From an uncultured Muribaculaceae bacterium (GTDB taxonomy: Bacteria; Bacteroidota; Bacteroidia; Bacteroidales; Muribaculaceae): DNA of 64,000 bases. The stretch lies in assembly GCA_947627615.1 (NCBI GenBank), contig CANQWS010000003.1:62001-126000 (forward strand), given 5' to 3'. Made by a program: the position numbers and the translations under genes. The number at the start of each line of letters is the position of its first letter. Position 1 is the first letter of the stretch. Under the pieces are notes generated by a model. The model did no database searches. It was not told the DNA's origin and saw only the letters and a list, made by a program, of their open reading frames with translations. Positions 9,001-64,000 of the stretch are shown here, piece by piece.

Positions 9001-12000
9001 ACTTCTTGCCGTAGAAGGGGAATTCGAAGGGCAGTTCCACTTCAATGTAGTCATGTGCCAGGTAGTATGTCAGACCGTTGCGTGCGCCGAGGCCGTTGGT
9101 CTCGATGTCGATCCATTCGTCGGACACTGACTTGTCATCGATGCGGGCGGTGCTTGTGTAGGCCACGCCGGTTGACTTGGAGTAGTCAGGCATGTAGTTC
9201 ACGTGCTCGCCGGTCACGATGGAGTAGGTCAGGGGCTCGTTGCCGTTGTTGGTCACGGTCAGCGGCTTGTCGATGACGTTTCCTGCATCGGTCACAATCT
9301 CGAGGCTTTCGTAGCTGAGCTGGGCTTCGGGGCATCCGATCACCTTACCTGCGAGCTGAACGTCGGCAGAACCGGCATCGGCCACGATGTGGACAATGTC
9401 AGAAACCTCGCCTTCGGTCTCGGTGGGCAGAATCACGGTGATGTCCTTGGCGCGTCCGGCCTCGATGGCGAACGGTTCGGAGGATGCGAGGCGGAACTTG
9501 CCGTTCTCAACGGTCACTGAGGTGACGTTCATTACGGCATGACCGTTGTTGCGCACGGTGATGTTGCGTTTGGCCTCGGATGTGCGGAACACGCTGCCGA
9601 AATCAACCTTCTCCACGTCAACTGCAAACACGGGCTTGCGGTCGCCGGTGATGTTGGCGTTGAAGGGCATGAGCACGGTGGGGTTGACGATGTCATTGGA
9701 GTTGATGATGAGGTTGGTTACGGTGGGTCCGGCGTTCATGTCGTCGGAAGCAGCCACGCTGGCGGTCACAGTCACGGATTCACCCGGGGCGATGAGGCCA
9801 GAAGCGGGAGCTATGGAGGTGATCATGTTCGGGGCCGGAGCGACGAATTTCACGGCTGTACCCGAGCCGAACGATCTGTAGCGCTCGCCTTCCGGAGTCT
9901 GTTCATCTTCCGGAGTGTATTCCTTGTTGGAAATGTCAGTAGAGGTTACTGAAATCGGGTCGGAGTTGGCGGGGTCGTCGATACCGCAGTAGAGGTTGCG
10001 GCCTGAATTGAACACCATCGAGGGGTCATAATCGTCGTAGTACATCTCGATGTCGCCGTTGGAGCAGAGCGCGATGTGGAAGGAAATGGGAGTGTATTCC
10101 CCGCCATAGACGCTTGCGAGAACGTTGATGAACTTGACAACGAACTTGCCGTCGACCTTGGCATACTGAATCTTGCTCGAAGGACCTATCTTCACGTCGC
10201 TGCCGAAGGCCGTCATCCAGCCTCCCCCGGCGAGATAAGAGTGTCCGGGGTAGACGGGGGGATAGCCCATGTTGCCGTCGTAGGGATTGATTGCCACGGC
10301 GCCGTAGCTTGTCACGTAGACATGGTCATATTCCTTGCCGTAGTAGGGGAACTTGAAGCCGAGGTCAATGCGGTCGGACCACCAGTCCTGATCGGAGAAC
10401 TGCGACGAGATGTCGACAGCGTCAACGAGTTCCGGGTTGCCGTCGTAGGCGAAAGCGTCGGAGCCGTTGAGGTTGGAGGTCCATACGTAGCCGAATTTGT
10501 GGACATCGCCGCCGGAAGCACCCTCTATGGTCTCGTCGCTGTATTTGGGCATGACGTACTGGAGGGGGAATTTACCGTCGTTCACAATGGAGAATGACAG
10601 TTCCTTGGCTTCGGCACCCACTTCGAGGTCGCCGGCGTCGAGCGACGCGGGATTGAGGGTTATCTTGGCGGGATCAACGGCCACACCGGTAACCATCACC
10701 TTGAACTGGCGTCCGTCCATGTCGGTGAACACGATCTGTCCGCTCTGGGGACCTGACTGCTTGGGCGCGAAGGTCACGTCGAAGCGGGTGGTGCTTCTTG
10801 CGGGGAATCCGGAGCTTACGTCAGACGGGCCCTGGAAATTCTCGTTGGTCGACGAGATGTTGTCGGAATAGAGACCTGCACCCCACTGGCTGCCCTTGAA
10901 GTCGCCGTAGCCGGCGTTGAACACCTCGAGCGAGAGGGTCTTCTGCTGGCCCACGAGAAGCGAGCCGAAATCAACCACCTTGCCGAACTTCACTTCAGGA
11001 GCATGGCCCGAGACATTGAGAGTCACGGGGATTACGATTTCGTTGGCCTGGCTTTCGTTGGTCTCGAAACGGAGATTGAACTTGTAGTCGCCGTTGACCA
11101 GAGGCTGGCTTCCGGCAGCCACGGTCACTTCCTGGGTCTCACCCTGTTTCAGGGTACCGGAGGCGGGCTTGATGTCAAGAACCGTAGACCAGTCGGGAGT
11201 GAGCGAACGGGCAGTAATGGCCCATGTGGGATTTTTGACCGATTCGTAGGGCGAACCCTTGAGGGCGTCGCTCAGGCGAGTCCAGGTCTTGCCGAGGTCA
11301 TTGGACATGAGGGCGTTGGTTGCCTCGTTGGCCGATGTTGTGGCTTCGGCGAGTCCGAGAGGATAGAGATTGTCCTGCGCTGGGAAGTGGACGCACACCC
11401 AGAAGATCTGGCCGGGCGCGAAATAGAGCTGCTCGGGCAGGGCTATGTTCCAGTCGTAGACGAAGAACTGGGGTGTGAAGCTGCACACCAGGTTGGCGGG
11501 CATGGGAGCCGAGCCTCCGGCGTAGATCTCGAAGTAGGCGCCTTCACCGCCGCCACCGCTGACGCGGAGAGAGGTGAGGTTGAAGCCTTCGGGATATTTC
11601 TCGGCATCCACGGCAAACATCTGCGCCATGGAGTTGGGCAGCTTGGTGTCGACATCGCCGATGCGGGCGTAGAAGTAATCGAAGTATTTCAGGTCCTTGG
11701 GATACTCGTCGGCAACGTACTCGTCGGAGCGGACCACGCTGAAGGTCTTGATTTTCTCGCCGTCGAGCTTGCCGGAGAACGGAACGATATTGTTTGCGGT
11801 GGAGAACATGGAGGCCTTCGGGCCTGACACGGTGCGAGCCTTGTAGGCCCACTTCAGGAGGCCTTCGTCTTCGTTGCCTATGTTGAAGGTGGCGGGGCCG
11901 GATGTTATGTCGAGGCTCTGCTTGTCGACGGTCATTTTGGGACCGGCGTTGGTTGACGCGCTCTTGACTTCGGAGATTTCCGAAGCGACGCCCTGACGGC

Positions 12001-13765
12001 TGACAGCCTGAATGGCGAAATAGTAGGTGGTCATGGGCGCGAGGTTGGAGACTTCGCGACGTGCGGTCTCGCCTGACGAGAGAAATTTGGTGTCGACGGT
12101 CACCGTGCGTGCCTTGCCGATGTTTTCGGCGGTCAGCGGTTCGGTAGAGTAGTAGATCACGCAGTGGTCAACCACGTTGAACGAAGCTTCGGGAATGACC
12201 CATTCCACCACGATGTTGTCCTGTGCGGGAAGCAGAGAGAACTCGGTAACGGCGGAGGGAGCGGAGCCGGAAGCATCGAAATTCAGCGCTTTGGCCGCGT
12301 CGATGTAGCCTGTACCGTAGAGACCCTCTTTGCCGGGGTTGAAGGAATAGAGGTCGTTGACCGACGATTCGAGCTGCGAACGGAGCATGTCGGGGCTGAA
12401 CTTGGTGTCTTTGTAGTGCGACAGGAGAAGAGCCGCGATACCCGACACGTGAGGCGTGGCCATAGAGGTACCCTCGTTCCATCCGTAGGAGTTGTCAGGG
12501 AGAGTGGAGAGCACGCCCCATGCCTCGCCGAAGTCAAGGATACCGCCGGGAGCGGTGATGTCGACCCAGCTGCCGTAGTTGGAGTAGGGAGCCACGATTT
12601 TGTTGGGAATCATGGAGCCTACGCTCAGAACCTTGTCGTAGCATGCGGGATAGTAATCGCCTGTGGAGCCCATGTTACCGGCAGCGAAAATGCAGAGGCC
12701 GCCGTGTTCGTCAGTGAAGTAGTCAATGGCGTCAAGCACAGCCTGCTCGCAGTAGTCGGGAGCGTCCCAACCCCATGAGCACTGGGCTATGTGTGCGCCC
12801 ATTTCGGCCGCGTAGACAATGGCCTGGGCGAAATCGCCTTCGGAGGTGCCCTGACGCGAGTCGAACACCTGGCAAGAGAGCATTCTGATACCGGACTGGG
12901 GCGAGCCGTCACCGCCGGCCACACCGGCCACACCTATGCCGTTGTTGTTGACAGCGGCAACCGTACCGGCCACGTGAGTACCGTGGCTGTGGGGGTAGAT
13001 CTGTGACGAGTTGGTGCAGAAGTTGAAGCCGTAGATGTCATCGACATAGCCGTTGCCGTCGTCGTCGACGCCCGGCTGGCCGTTAAGCTCGGCCTCGTTG
13101 ATGTACATGTTGGCGGCGAGGTCCTCGTGGGTGTAATCGACACCGCCGTCAATGATGGCCACGAGCACTTCGGGCTTTCCGGTCTCGGTTTTCCATGCCT
13201 CGAAAAGGTTGATGTCGGCACCTGCGACGGCATTGTTGATGGAGCCGTCGTTGAAATAGTGCCACTGTGCGGGGAGACGGGGGTCGTTGAACGGCATTGC
13301 GGCCGAAGACCTCACGCCAGCCAGCTTTTCGGGGGCGAATGGAACGAATTTCTGAGAACCGACGATGACCGGAGTGCGGACCACTTCGGCTTTCTGAACG
13401 CCGATTGTCTGTTTGAGTACGCTCTGGGCCTGCTGCGGGGTAACTTCAGTGTCGAAAGTCACTTCGTACCACTGGTCAAGGCCATGGCGTGCACGCTTTT
13501 CTGCAAATTTAGGGTTTGGCGGGAAAAGCGGGCGCATTGTCAGACCACCGATTTTCTTGAGGGAGGCGTTGAGCGCCTTCACCGGTGTTGACAGAGTGCC
13601 AGCCTTCTTTACCGAGCGTGATTCAGCGCCCATAGTCGCAGCGACGGAGGGCTGGAGTTTCACGCGCACCTTTCCGGGGACGGTGCCCGCGGAGGCCGCC
13701 AATGCAGAAAGTCCGACGACAGCCATTATGGCTATCGCCAGTGTTTTACGTAAAAACTGTAGCAT
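6014..13765 (-). CDS. giant secreted S8 (subtilisin-like) serine peptidase with T9SS-type C-terminal sorting domain
   Basis: 2583 aa; signal peptide, catalytic VAIIDGGVDYTHEDL / HSHGTHVAGTVAAV / GTSMATPHVSGIAALLL; C-terminus LTVWPNPVVETLHV...GTYVLSVSTDGAAPASFVIIKK resembles Por-secretion tail. Confidence 0.92.
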   Translation of the reverse strand: MLQFLRKTLAIAIMAVVGLSALAASAGTVPGKVRVKLQPSVAATMGAESRSVKKAGTLSTPVKALNASLKKIGGLTMRPLFPPNPKFAEKRARHGLDQWYEVTFDTEVTPQQAQSVLKQTIGVQKAEVVRTPVIVGSQKFVPFAPEKLAGVRSSAAMPFNDPRLPAQWHYFNDGSINNAVAGADINLFEAWKTETGKPEVLVAIIDGGVDYTHEDLAANMYINEAELNGQPGVDDDGNGYVDDIYGFNFCTNSSQIYPHSHGTHVAGTVAAVNNNGIGVAGVAGGDGSPQSGIRMLSCQVFDSRQGTSEGDFAQAIVYAAEMGAHIAQCSWGWDAPDYCEQAVLDAIDYFTDEHGGLCIFAAGNMGSTGDYYPACYDKVLSVGSMIPNKIVAPYSNYGSWVDITAPGGILDFGEAWGVLSTLPDNSYGWNEGTSMATPHVSGIAALLLSHYKDTKFSPDMLRSQLESSVNDLYSFNPGKEGLYGTGYIDAAKALNFDASGSAPSAVTEFSLLPAQDNIVVEWVIPEASFNVVDHCVIYYSTEPLTAENIGKARTVTVDTKFLSSGETARREVSNLAPMTTYYFAIQAVSRQGVASEISEVKSASTNAGPKMTVDKQSLDITSGPATFNIGNEDEGLLKWAYKARTVSGPKASMFSTANNIVPFSGKLDGEKIKTFSVVRSDEYVADEYPKDLKYFDYFYARIGDVDTKLPNSMAQMFAVDAEKYPEGFNLTSLRVSGGGGEGAYFEIYAGGSAPMPANLVCSFTPQFFVYDWNIALPEQLYFAPGQIFWVCVHFPAQDNLYPLGLAEATTSANEATNALMSNDLGKTWTRLSDALKGSPYESVKNPTWAITARSLTPDWSTVLDIKPASGTLKQGETQEVTVAAGSQPLVNGDYKFNLRFETNESQANEIVIPVTLNVSGHAPEVKFGKVVDFGSLLVGQQKTLSLEVFNAGYGDFKGSQWGAGLYSDNISSTNENFQGPSDVSSGFPARSTTRFDVTFAPKQSGPQSGQIVFTDMDGRQFKVMVTGVAVDPAKITLNPASLDAGDLEVGAEAKELSFSIVNDGKFPLQYVMPKYSDETIEGASGGDVHKFGYVWTSNLNGSDAFAYDGNPELVDAVDISSQFSDQDWWSDRIDLGFKFPYYGKEYDHVYVTSYGAVAINPYDGNMGYPPVYPGHSYLAGGGWMTAFGSDVKIGPSSKIQYAKVDGKFVVKFINVLASVYGGEYTPISFHIALCSNGDIEMYYDDYDPSMVFNSGRNLYCGIDDPANSDPISVTSTDISNKEYTPEDEQTPEGERYRSFGSGTAVKFVAPAPNMITSIAPASGLIAPGESVTVTASVAASDDMNAGPTVTNLIINSNDIVNPTVLMPFNANITGDRKPVFAVDVEKVDFGSVFRTSEAKRNITVRNNGHAVMNVTSVTVENGKFRLASSEPFAIEAGRAKDITVILPTETEGEVSDIVHIVADAGSADVQLAGKVIGCPEAQLSYESLEIVTDAGNVIDKPLTVTNNGNEPLTYSIVTGEHVNYMPDYSKSTGVAYTSTARIDDKSVSDEWIDIETNGLGARNGLTYYLAHDYIEVELPFEFPFYGKKYTKMYVYNTGFVSFTKRNDDKIWPEPPAGFPNDNYFTNIIAPYWGLHSMDETKTAGIYHHENADRAVISFTEYGNSMNIGVDFQLVLRPDGTFRFVYRGSSNVTDPVIYSPFGLAGITDENGKNSIRLPDRYIQFNNAVEFSPVVQMSLPAGQSDVADIKVNANILGGEYASSITVTTNVPSNGKIEIPVSLTVNGTPEPVLPEEQLEIERAVGQQSTDVSDPMVQMGAMYSIYFDAANSGTAPYTISNIHYEGPMGEDYGWGAEPAFMLFYYGERIDDWTGETVKGWGQYPFESGMPVAVGTDAIRFALPMLPNETAYTPGEYPVKLTFDIEGLGEETQTREINFLFKVTPAPVAYTDDVQGIYIKAPAPDYKGERDVVVANYGEGVLKGTATIDLSGKTEEVGDGGGVAPLVSAAEAKAAKAALAQKVLETIGKPSVVPSDVSDEVSDIFDAPSKAEFDYLRALYHPHSEVSEAVYNYGSGKTYALFKAATEMVAPEDGFNLSHVYTIIHLGQAKNADYKVEIISGSDLDNGNVLASGVFHSGENHSPAASMTVVVPMDKSVFIPGGQTFNIVVTYPVGEEWPATMAAKQDKVTSDRYRAWTEGVSWFDVADMFQDQYGSLGWCTTALETVKGESWLTIDGDGTVLVDPSGETVIKLKVNAASAPLESGNKATLVLKLNDPQQPVMNIPVVLDNNGAPVIESDAANVLVAEGQRQSVQFTVTEPENEDFSVRLDDNGNLAVISAVTGAEAVKAEGDEDVWNVTGVTGPVNVTVDIAPDYGDNGVYTATLSAADKFGSESGHTVSYTVERTNRAPEALAVEPYVLQVGGSTEVLDFNTIFNEPDGEVMTYNIEIADPSVIEAFTSASSAIFVGKAVGETTAVVEATDESGATTANTLTFKVETPAAIDNITLASSLTVWPNPVVETLHVTCADDVAAVTLKLTAINGMTMMEMTEDNVAGQAHDIDVSTLVAGTYVLSVSTDGAAPASFVIIKK

Positions 13766-62215: not shown

Positions 62216-62223
62216 TATCTTTG
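62216..62223 (+). promoter_or_regulatory. candidate -7 element of the dUTPase-fold/NUDIX operon
   Basis: TATCTTTG matches TAnnTTTG, about 28 nt upstream of ATG 62251; weak -33. Confidence 0.5.
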
Positions 62224-62250: not shown

Positions 62251-62886
62251 ATGTCGATAATCAATCTAAACCGCCGCGTGACTTCCGACTGGGATGCGAG
62301 ATGCGAGAATCTGAAATCGCCTGACAGCCTTGTGCTCGTAAAGCCCAAGGTGTCGGACCCCATTCAAAATCCGGCCTCTATGGAAGTGGAGGTGGGTGAC
62401 AATTATATTTTACCAGATGACAACAAGACCTACAAGATAGATGACAATGGACTGAAGGTCAAGCCCGGCTGTTCGGTAGTGGTCTATAGCCGGCAGAAAT
62501 TCGCGTTGCCTTACAATGTGTTCGGAGTGGTCACAGGAAAGGGCAATTACATATTTCAGGGTTGTTTCGTGTCGACCGGAAAAATCGACCCCGGATTCAA
62601 CGGATTTCTCAAAATCGGTTTTTACAACGGTGGCCGCAGAAATATAGTACTGAAGCCGGGCACCGCTTTCGCATCCGTGTTTTTTATTTCAACGGAATTC
62701 ACCATGGCTCATAAGCTTGAGGATTACCAGTCTGAGCCGCCGGCCGACAGCAAACCTATAGGCTTCTGGAGGCGTTTCGGTCTCTTTGTGTCAGCGCATT
62801 GGAAAGGAGCTTTGGGATGGCTCATAGCTGTGCCGGCATCCATCTATTATGTGATTCAGTTAGTAAAAATTATCACAGGTTCATGA
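62251..62886 (+). CDS. dUTPase/dCTP-deaminase-fold protein with C-terminal transmembrane helix
   Basis: Start at MSIINLNRR; LKVKPGCSVVVYSRQKFALPYNVFGVVTGKGNYIFQGCFVSTGKIDPGFNGFLKIGFYNGGRRNIVLKPGTAFASVFF fits the dUTPase-superfamily core; C-terminal GWLIAVPASIYYVIQLVKII hydrophobic helix. Confidence 0.75.
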   Translation: MSIINLNRRVTSDWDARCENLKSPDSLVLVKPKVSDPIQNPASMEVEVGDNYILPDDNKTYKIDDNGLKVKPGCSVVVYSRQKFALPYNVFGVVTGKGNYIFQGCFVSTGKIDPGFNGFLKIGFYNGGRRNIVLKPGTAFASVFFISTEFTMAHKLEDYQSEPPADSKPIGFWRRFGLFVSAHWKGALGWLIAVPASIYYVIQLVKIITGS

Positions 62887-63422
62887 GTATGATTATAACC
62901 GGAGATAATCTTCTGGCCCTTGTCAGACAGCATAAAATAATTGACGAGACAGCCTACGACAGGTTCTCGCTTTCGCTGAGTCTTGACGGCTCAGTGACCA
63001 GATTCAGGGGCGAATTGCCGCTCATAACCTATGGACAGGAGGTTACGGAGAGCATGATGGAGCGTGTGGATATACCGGAAGGATATGTGCTCAATCCGGG
63101 AGAGGCCGTTCTGGCATGCAGTGCCGAAAAGGTGAAAATACCGCCGGGATATATGGGTCTGCTGCAGACCAAGGGTTCGCTGGCCCGCCTTTTCGTGACG
63201 GTTCATTGTTGTGACAGCCAGATTGAAAGCGGGTTCAGGGGCAAGGTCACCTTCGAACTGTGCAATATGGGCAGGGCCAGGGTGAGGCTGACTCCCGGAC
63301 AGAAGGTCGCTCAGATGTATCTGTTCCGGACATCGTCAGACATGGTGATGTATGACGGAATTTACCGCGATGCCGATGAACCTACGATGAGTAAACGAAA
63401 TTACAATCATAAAGATAAATGA
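62883..63422 (+). CDS. dCTP deaminase-like protein
   Basis: Start at MSMIITGDN (ATGA overlap with the previous stop); KGSLARLFVTVHCCDSQIESGFRGKVTFELCNMGRARVRLTPGQKVAQMYLFR. Confidence 0.8.
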   Translation: MSMIITGDNLLALVRQHKIIDETAYDRFSLSLSLDGSVTRFRGELPLITYGQEVTESMMERVDIPEGYVLNPGEAVLACSAEKVKIPPGYMGLLQTKGSLARLFVTVHCCDSQIESGFRGKVTFELCNMGRARVRLTPGQKVAQMYLFRTSSDMVMYDGIYRDADEPTMSKRNYNHKDK

Positions 63423-64000
63423 AAACCGAACTGACTCTCGCCGTGCCTACCGAAAAGGTGTGGCGAATACTGGACTACAAGGAGAACGCCGTGATCCGCG
63501 ACACTGACTCCGACACCATCTCGCGCCTGCTGGCCGACGGAATTTTCGAGCACCGTAATCTGCTCGAGGACGACCCCGGCCACAAGCAGATTATTCCCTA
63601 CGCGGTGATATGCCACGGAGATATGGTCTATCTGTTCCACCGCACCAAAAAGCAGACCGAGACCCGGCTCCACAATCTGTACTCGCTGGGCGTGGGGGGC
63701 CACATGAATCCGTGGGGCGACCACGCCATTGACACCGGCTATCTCCACCATGAACTGGAGCGCGAGATGCATGAGGAAGTGCTGCTCCACGAGGGCTGCC
63801 GGGTGGAGTGCCTGCGTCCGGTGGGGTATATCAACGATGATACCAACGAGGTGGGCCGCGTGCATCTGGGCGTGCTCTATGAGATTGTGCTCAACAACAC
63901 CGACATTGAAATCAACGAGAAGGAGAAGATGACGGGCCGCTGGGTCAGGAAAGCTGACCTGGGCGAGTATTATCCGCAGATGGAGTCCTGGTCAAAAATC
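63419..64000 (+). CDS. NUDIX hydrolase family protein, 3' truncated by window edge
   Basis: MKTELTLAVPTEKVWRILDYKENAVIRD...GVGGHMNPWGDHAIDTGYLHHELEREMHEEVLLHEG (REMHEEV matches the Nudix-box REUxEE core); ATGA overlap with upstream stop; open at position 64000. Confidence 0.8.
   Translation, partial: MKTELTLAVPTEKVWRILDYKENAVIRDTDSDTISRLLADGIFEHRNLLEDDPGHKQIIPYAVICHGDMVYLFHRTKKQTETRLHNLYSLGVGGHMNPWGDHAIDTGYLHHELEREMHEEVLLHEGCRVECLRPVGYINDDTNEVGRVHLGVLYEIVLNNTDIEINEKEKMTGRWVRKADLGEYYPQMESWSKI

Follow-up and report, generated by a model that had tools for sequence, protein, structure and literature searches.

At the right-hand end of a 64,000-nucleotide stretch of the genome of an uncultured Muribaculaceae bacterium (the stretch is hereafter the window and the genome G000), we find a three-gene operon that couples two DCD/dUTPase-fold proteins, P1 and P2, to a NUDIX hydrolase. 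As a sequence-only reading of the same DNA had remarked, this is not a standard layout for pyrimidine biosynthesis. The dUMP from which thymidylate is made comes from dUTP by way of the dUTPase Dut or from dCTP by way of Dcd or the bifunctional Dcd:dut. Judging from sequence comparisons, we give an even chance to the reading that the operon is a deoxypyrimidine-nucleotide module standing in for a canonical dUTPase that has been lost. What is new relative to the known Dcd and Dut enzymes is the coupling of a soluble DCD-fold protein with a membrane-anchored, apparently dead homologue and a NUDIX hydrolase.

Gene structure, composition and origin of the operon

All three genes lie on the forward strand. 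P1 (62251..62886; ATG at 62251, stop TGA at 62884-62886) encodes a DCD/dUTPase-fold protein of 211 amino acids with a C-terminal transmembrane helix; P2 (62883..63422; ATG at 62883, stop TGA at 63420-63422) encodes a soluble dCTP-deaminase-like protein of 179 amino acids; and P0003 (P3; 63419..64051; ATG at 63419) encodes a NUDIX hydrolase of 210 amino acids, with 63419..64000 of its gene inside the window and the last 51 bases beyond it. Read directly from the sequence, and in agreement with the earlier description of the gene order, P1 and P2 share an ATGA overlap at 62883..62886 and P2 and the NUDIX gene another at 63419..63422. The expectation that the operon would continue past the window holds for those last 51 bases and goes no further: the next gene on the assembly contig (G000:C3) is a convergent one of the YbaK/tRNA-editing type, followed by yaaA, so that the operon consists of three genes with no fourth. 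Also to the right of the window (L002 8243-13194) are fimbrillin-like and OmpA-like lipoprotein genes, with a tyrosine recombinase at the end.

For P1, the ATG at 62251 is favoured over an upstream TTG, its relatives beginning with MGVIDLN and MSLINIE. The start codon of P2 may be the ATG at 62883 or another one in frame at 62889, the latter being the better fit to the starts of its relatives (MLVVGDN and MIIIGDN). A pattern match to a Bacteroidota-type -7 promoter box, TATCTTTG, is present on the forward strand at 62216..62223, 27 bases 5' of the P1 start codon, the pattern used being the general consensus for Bacteroidota; the window contains 19 matches to it where chance alone would give 13.4, so this is a weak promoter candidate. 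P1 and P2 are also coupled in two other genomes, G217 (with a 2-nucleotide gap) and G505 (by ATGA). The recurrence of the pair, the passing of Pfam cut-offs and the match of the NUDIX protein to a solved structure, PDB 3e57, confirm that the three genes are real and that their coupling goes beyond chance.

The GC3 values of P1 and P2 are 0.57 and 0.59, against 0.79 for the NUDIX gene and 0.73-0.77 for the neighbouring genes; among the 33 long open reading frames of the window (mean 0.728, sd 0.072) the frames of the pair, at 0.56 and 0.57 as listed there, are the two lowest, P1 being the lowest. The P1-P2 pair therefore looks recently acquired and set upstream of the NUDIX gene, and its horizontal acquisition is part of our best reading. 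The same values, in which the NUDIX gene fits the genome and the pair does not, would also suit an account in which the three genes are unrelated neighbours: an acquired pair of unknown role would have landed upstream of a resident NUDIX gene, and that dut is missing from both pair-bearing genomes would be a coincidence or an assembly gap. We regard this as rather unlikely, and the ATGA coupling between P2 and the NUDIX gene is a first point against it.

P1 is probably a pseudoenzyme and P2 probably an active enzyme

The dUTPase-fold and dCTP-deaminase-like calls of the sequence-only reading are borne out by profile searches, as is the NUDIX call by the match to 3e57. P1 passes the curated Pfam cut-offs for DCD (E 1.5e-9) and dUTPase (E 5.5e-6); P2 matches the DCD model with E 2.5e-24 and 86.5 bits against a cut-off of 27 bits, its fold covering nearly the whole model, and passes the dUTPase cut-off too. 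AlphaFold predictions of P1 and P2 from two-row alignments (pLDDT 46 and 42) were too poor and were left out of fold searches. Both proteins resemble the trimeric dUTPases (Dut; PF00692) in passing the Pfam cut-off, and the biological role, that is the removal of dUTP and the supply of dUMP, is probably shared. In contrast to Dut, the motif II Ser is lost, the glycine-rich C-terminal motif V is not seen in alignments of P1 or P2, the cut-offs of dut models are not reached, and the pair is found where canonical Dut is absent.

The membrane anchor proposed for the first gene corresponds to a hydrophobic C-terminal segment, LIAVPASIYYVIQLVKIIT (residues 191-209; 62821..62877, forward strand), which has the best 19-residue hydropathy in P1 (1.75) and is similarly placed in the relatives from G217 and G505, where the C-terminal ends reach 3.0 and 2.5, respectively. 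In alignment with E. coli Dcd, P1 is without Ser111, Arg115, His121 and Glu138; the equivalent of Glu138 (residue 123; codon 62617..62619, forward strand) is Gly here, Ala in G217 and Leu in G505. Because this Glu is replaced, deaminase chemistry is not expected of P1, which is probably a pseudoenzyme by this alignment. Glu138 is likewise missing from the other transmembrane-anchored DCD-fold proteins that we read.

P2 is akin to the metal-independent Dcd and bifunctional Dcd:dut enzymes (PF22769, TIGR02274; E. coli 1xs1, 2qxx, M. jannaschii 1ogh), with which it shares the fold, the equivalents of Arg115, His121 and Glu138, and a C-terminal Y..PT motif as in Dcd. Arg115 corresponds to Arg102 of P2, and the catalytic Glu138 of E. 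coli Dcd to Glu125 (codon 63255..63257, forward strand); the three residues are also retained in the P2 proteins of G217 and G505. It differs from these enzymes by its score against the NCBIfam equivalog dCTP_deam (TIGR02274; 80.7 bits, under the cut-off of 92.8), by the dead, anchored homologue beside it and by the substitutions Ser111 to Gly, Ala124 to Asp and Asp128 to Glu, which all three known P2 proteins have, unlike the other soluble DCDs aligned. Ser111 of motif II is common to the aligned Dcd and Dut sequences, and its loss makes the activity of P2 uncertain; P2 is probably active.

The best solved relative of P2 is 2qxx, annotated as a deoxycytidine triphosphate deaminase and known as the bifunctional enzyme of M. 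tuberculosis. This relationship, along with the conserved Glu138, Arg115 and His121 equivalents, would agree with a scheme in which P2 alone replaces Dut by combining dCTP deaminase and dUTPase activities, like the bifunctional enzymes of Mycobacterium or Methanocaldococcus, P1 being only an anchor and the NUDIX hydrolase cleaning other dNTPs. We find this scheme quite improbable, given the three substitutions common to all P2 proteins and the score under the equivalog cut-off.

Canonical dut is absent from both Bacteroidales carriers of the pair

In G000, which is 99.8% complete, PF00692 and PF22769 match P1 and P2 only, and the Dut protein of a genus-mate used as query retrieves P2 only. A DCD/dUTPase-fold match, typically of about 150 amino acids, is present in 144 of the 149 genomes of the family, the nine genus-mates included, and it is Dut in both genus-mates that we read. 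The genus-mates G327 and G409 and the distant G119 have a conserved dut-TPR-DUF4292-M23 locus; in G000 the TPR-DUF4292-M23 cluster is intact and contiguous, and a gene for an outer-membrane-type protein takes the dut position on the same contig. An assembly gap is unlikely at a locus that is contiguous and empty of dut, and this tells against the account of unrelated neighbours. G217 is similarly without canonical dut, which its congener G119 has; a weak Dut-like match in G217 (C4, E=0.85) proved to be a frame running antisense to the gene of an AAA ATPase. A search for the dimeric (phage-type) dUTPase with one query found nothing in G000 or G217; for G000, the searches for enzymes leading to dUMP covered the DCD and dUTPase families and this dimeric type.

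Across the order, 230 of 244 good genomes have a PF00692 match. In two of these, G000 and G217, the match is to P1 or P2 alone, which leaves 228 of 244 with canonical dut. The probability that both carriers of the pair would fall by chance among the 16 dut-less genomes is 0.004. Another 14 of these good genomes score dut-less as well, a point in favour of coincidence and hence of the unrelated-neighbour account. Two members of the family, G402 and G404 (99% complete), have ung and yielded no DCD/dUTPase match, no NUDIX gene and, in the DCD search, no pair; since they are dut-less without the NUDIX, the loss of dut must be survivable in some other manner or sometimes be an assembly artefact. 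They too may be cases of an unexplained dut- ung+ genotype.

Many bacteria in which no known dUTPase is found nevertheless retain uracil-DNA glycosylase, although a cell with this combination is expected to have a destabilised genome. As ung is present in G000 and G217, the possibility that dut loss is tolerated in the carriers through a missing ung is ruled out. A housecleaning function, which the sequence-only reading had offered as one option, fits these observations: canonical dut is lost, ung is kept, and all three proteins point to dCTP/dUTP/dUMP metabolism.

A NUDIX hydrolase related to Tm1382 occurs in both carriers

A full-length match (E=3.4e-27, 98 bits) links the NUDIX protein to 3e57, the structure of Tm1382 from Thermotoga maritima, which is its only sequence match among solved structures; it also matches PHROG 8902 and has no match in Pfam. 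From the Nudix box GX5EX7REUXEEXGU it keeps the REUxEE core as REMHEE, with the first Glu and the last Gly missing. The record of phage SP-15 notes its member of this family as similar to BSU17400, the ymaB gene in the nrd operon of B. subtilis. The protein is like the Tm1382/YmaB type in its full-length match and its REUxEE core, and differs from it by the ATGA coupling to P1-P2.

A profile built from the G000 and G217 sequences and run over 295 genomes of the order recovered close relatives in exactly these two pair carriers (436 and 416 bits; next 81), the nine genus-mates of G000 having none; this co-occurrence argues against unrelated neighbours. Since the G000 copy is part of the operon, what is informative is the presence of the gene in the other carrier too, the chance of which is about 1/294 for a close relative and 4/294 for any relative. 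Distant relatives (54-81 bits) are found in G003, G243 and G261. In G217 the NUDIX gene is not beside the pair, a lack of linkage that favours the unrelated-neighbour account, and instead overlaps the end of thyA by about 10 bases. At that locus (L113 6311-8013) thyA encodes 363 amino acids, and a DnaQ-like exonuclease frame lies ahead of it.

Members of the NUDIX family encoded by phages, plasmids and viral contigs often adjoin nrdE/nrdF, thyA or dut, the last being an annotated dUTP diphosphatase accompanied by thioredoxin and guanylate kinase. These neighbours support a putative role of the family in deoxynucleotide supply. The NUDIX hydrolase need not itself be a dUTPase, because GR1-like phages carry both it and an annotated dUTPase. 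The notion that the NUDIX alone accounts for dut loss everywhere is weakened by these phages and by G003, G243 and G261, all three of which carry canonical dut along with the distant NUDIX.

Distribution of the pair, related anchored proteins and the question of phage defence

P1 was found in 2 of the 295 Bacteroidales genomes, namely G000 and the Lentimicrobiaceae metagenome-assembled genome G217, which rules out a core housekeeping operon and the universal conservation that the sequence-only reading had named as evidence against its proposal. A scan of genome contigs with P1, using strict peptide patterns, returned only G217 again. A third, more divergent P1-P2 pair is present in G505, from a 396-genome sample of the phylum, and canonical dut occurs alongside it there, in favour of the unrelated-neighbour account. 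On the short contig concerned (L086 2173-3327), a PIN_8-domain gene lies upstream of the pair; upstream of the G217 pair (L009 about 11240-12080) are degenerate short repeats of the GTGCTAAGTGGTCATATTGCACGAAATTATAGCC and TTTCTGGGAGTAGTGATCAAG types within a long non-coding stretch. Viral contigs yielded no confirmed relative of either P1 or P2, the phage records searched contained distant single DCDs only, and so a phage origin of the pair was rejected; in plasmids no relative of P1 was found.

Membrane-anchored DCD-fold proteins also occur singly, in every case lacking Glu138: they were observed in G705, G724 and G746, and the same class is present on plasmids of Rhizobium, Acuticoccus, Acinetobacter, Priestia and Sinorhizobium. 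Islands that recur across phyla combine an HTH regulator, an ImmA/IrrE (M78) peptidase, often a C1 peptidase, an anchored Glu-less DCD-fold protein and an HMUDK-type "DNA base hypermodification" protein or, in Acuticoccus, UDG and MazG genes (G724, L088 6036-12238; G746, L089 6692-10512; Rhizobium pRlX4, L157 1568-6895; an Acuticoccus plasmid, L158 5001-10570); that of G724 also has thymidylate kinase, ThyA-like and MazG-like genes. These islands are possibly an undescribed mobile system. Their DCD-fold proteins are like P1 in the DCD domain, the C-terminal transmembrane helix and the lost Glu, whereas they have no P2 partner and keep the company of the HMUDK-type, peptidase, thymidylate kinase, ThyA-like, MazG or UDG genes just named. 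On S. meliloti pSmeRU11d (L161 3983-5109), an anchored Glu-less DCD-fold gene is joined through ATGA to the gene of a MazG pyrophosphohydrolase, in parallel to the coupling of P2 and the NUDIX gene. In G705 (L087 5374-7729), the anchored DCD-fold gene directly adjoins one for a kinase plus cytidine-deaminase protein that matches the PADLOC dCTPase (E 4e-64). A literature search of incomplete coverage turned up no account of DCD proteins that are anchored in the membrane or are pseudoenzymes.

Parts of this distribution would agree with an anti-phage system, as the sequence-only reading had suggested, in which P1, at the membrane, would sense infection or disturbed dNTP levels, freeing P2 (and the NUDIX) to deplete dCTP or dNTPs, halting phage replication. 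The pair is rare, patchy and foreign in composition, and DCD-fold relatives adjoin the PADLOC dCTPase protein in G705, lie near a PIN-domain gene in G505 and occur in HTH-ImmA/IrrE islands with an HMUDK-type protein or UDG and MazG. Nevertheless, PADLOC gives no match for P1, P2 or the NUDIX, no defence genes were noticed near the operon in G000 among neighbours judged from their translations, and the G217 NUDIX gene is beside thyA, apart from the pair. Moreover, canonical dut is missing in both carriers, and an effector that makes dUTP without Dut would be expected to harm an ung+ host. The suggested link to known anti-phage dCTP deaminases is likewise not supported, as P2 would be like those enzymes in nominal dCTP activity only. 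The defence enzymes described by Tal and by Hsueh (AvcD) in 2022 reportedly have a zinc cytidine-deaminase fold. Zinc-type dCTP deaminases are set apart from the metal-independent family of E. coli Dcd (PMC12697855), and it is to the latter that P2 is related. We therefore consider defence unlikely and, on the strength of the dut loss and the thyA linkage, favour metabolism.

A proposed substitute for dUTPase

Without dut, an ung+ cell must convert dUTP to dUMP by some other step, and a deaminase yielding only dUTP would worsen matters; hence, the operon is best read as one that would turn dCTP and/or dUTP into dUMP, through the joint action of P2 and the NUDIX hydrolase. The dUMP would feed thymidylate synthase, and dUTP would be kept out of DNA. 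DCD-family enzymes are trimers; P1 would probably be a catalytically dead partner subunit that holds P2 to the inner membrane and/or regulates it there. Substitution for dUTPase is favoured by the loss of dut, the co-occurrence of the NUDIX, the nrdEF/thyA/dut context of its family, the GC3 of the pair and the DCD-MazG parallel on pSmeRU11d; counting against it are a total of only two carriers, the pair beside dut in G505, G402 and G404, the lack of Ser111 in P2 and the GR1-like phages. In a more specific version, a heteromeric membrane-tethered complex of dead and active DCD-fold subunits would work with a YmaB/Tm1382-type NUDIX, the latter being a so far unrecognised dUTPase (dUTP/dCTP pyrophosphatase) in its own right; this would make a new type of dUTPase substitute and would answer in part how dut- ung+ bacteria survive, and we offer it tentatively, with a low probability.

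Many prokaryotes, among them 14 of 15 Thermotogae and 26 of 96 Bacteroidetes, are without any known dUTPase; undescribed proteins have been proposed as one explanation for "Life without dUTPase" (PMC5122711). Thermotoga maritima, the source of the solved match of the NUDIX, belongs to the phylum with those 14 dut-less genomes. Membrane-anchored DCD-fold proteins without the catalytic Glu emerge as a recurring, little-noticed class. The three genes make a compact, clonable set, and both genomes in which they occur are dut- ung+, in an order where dut is nearly always present; if our reading is true, the set would help explain bacterial life without dUTPase.
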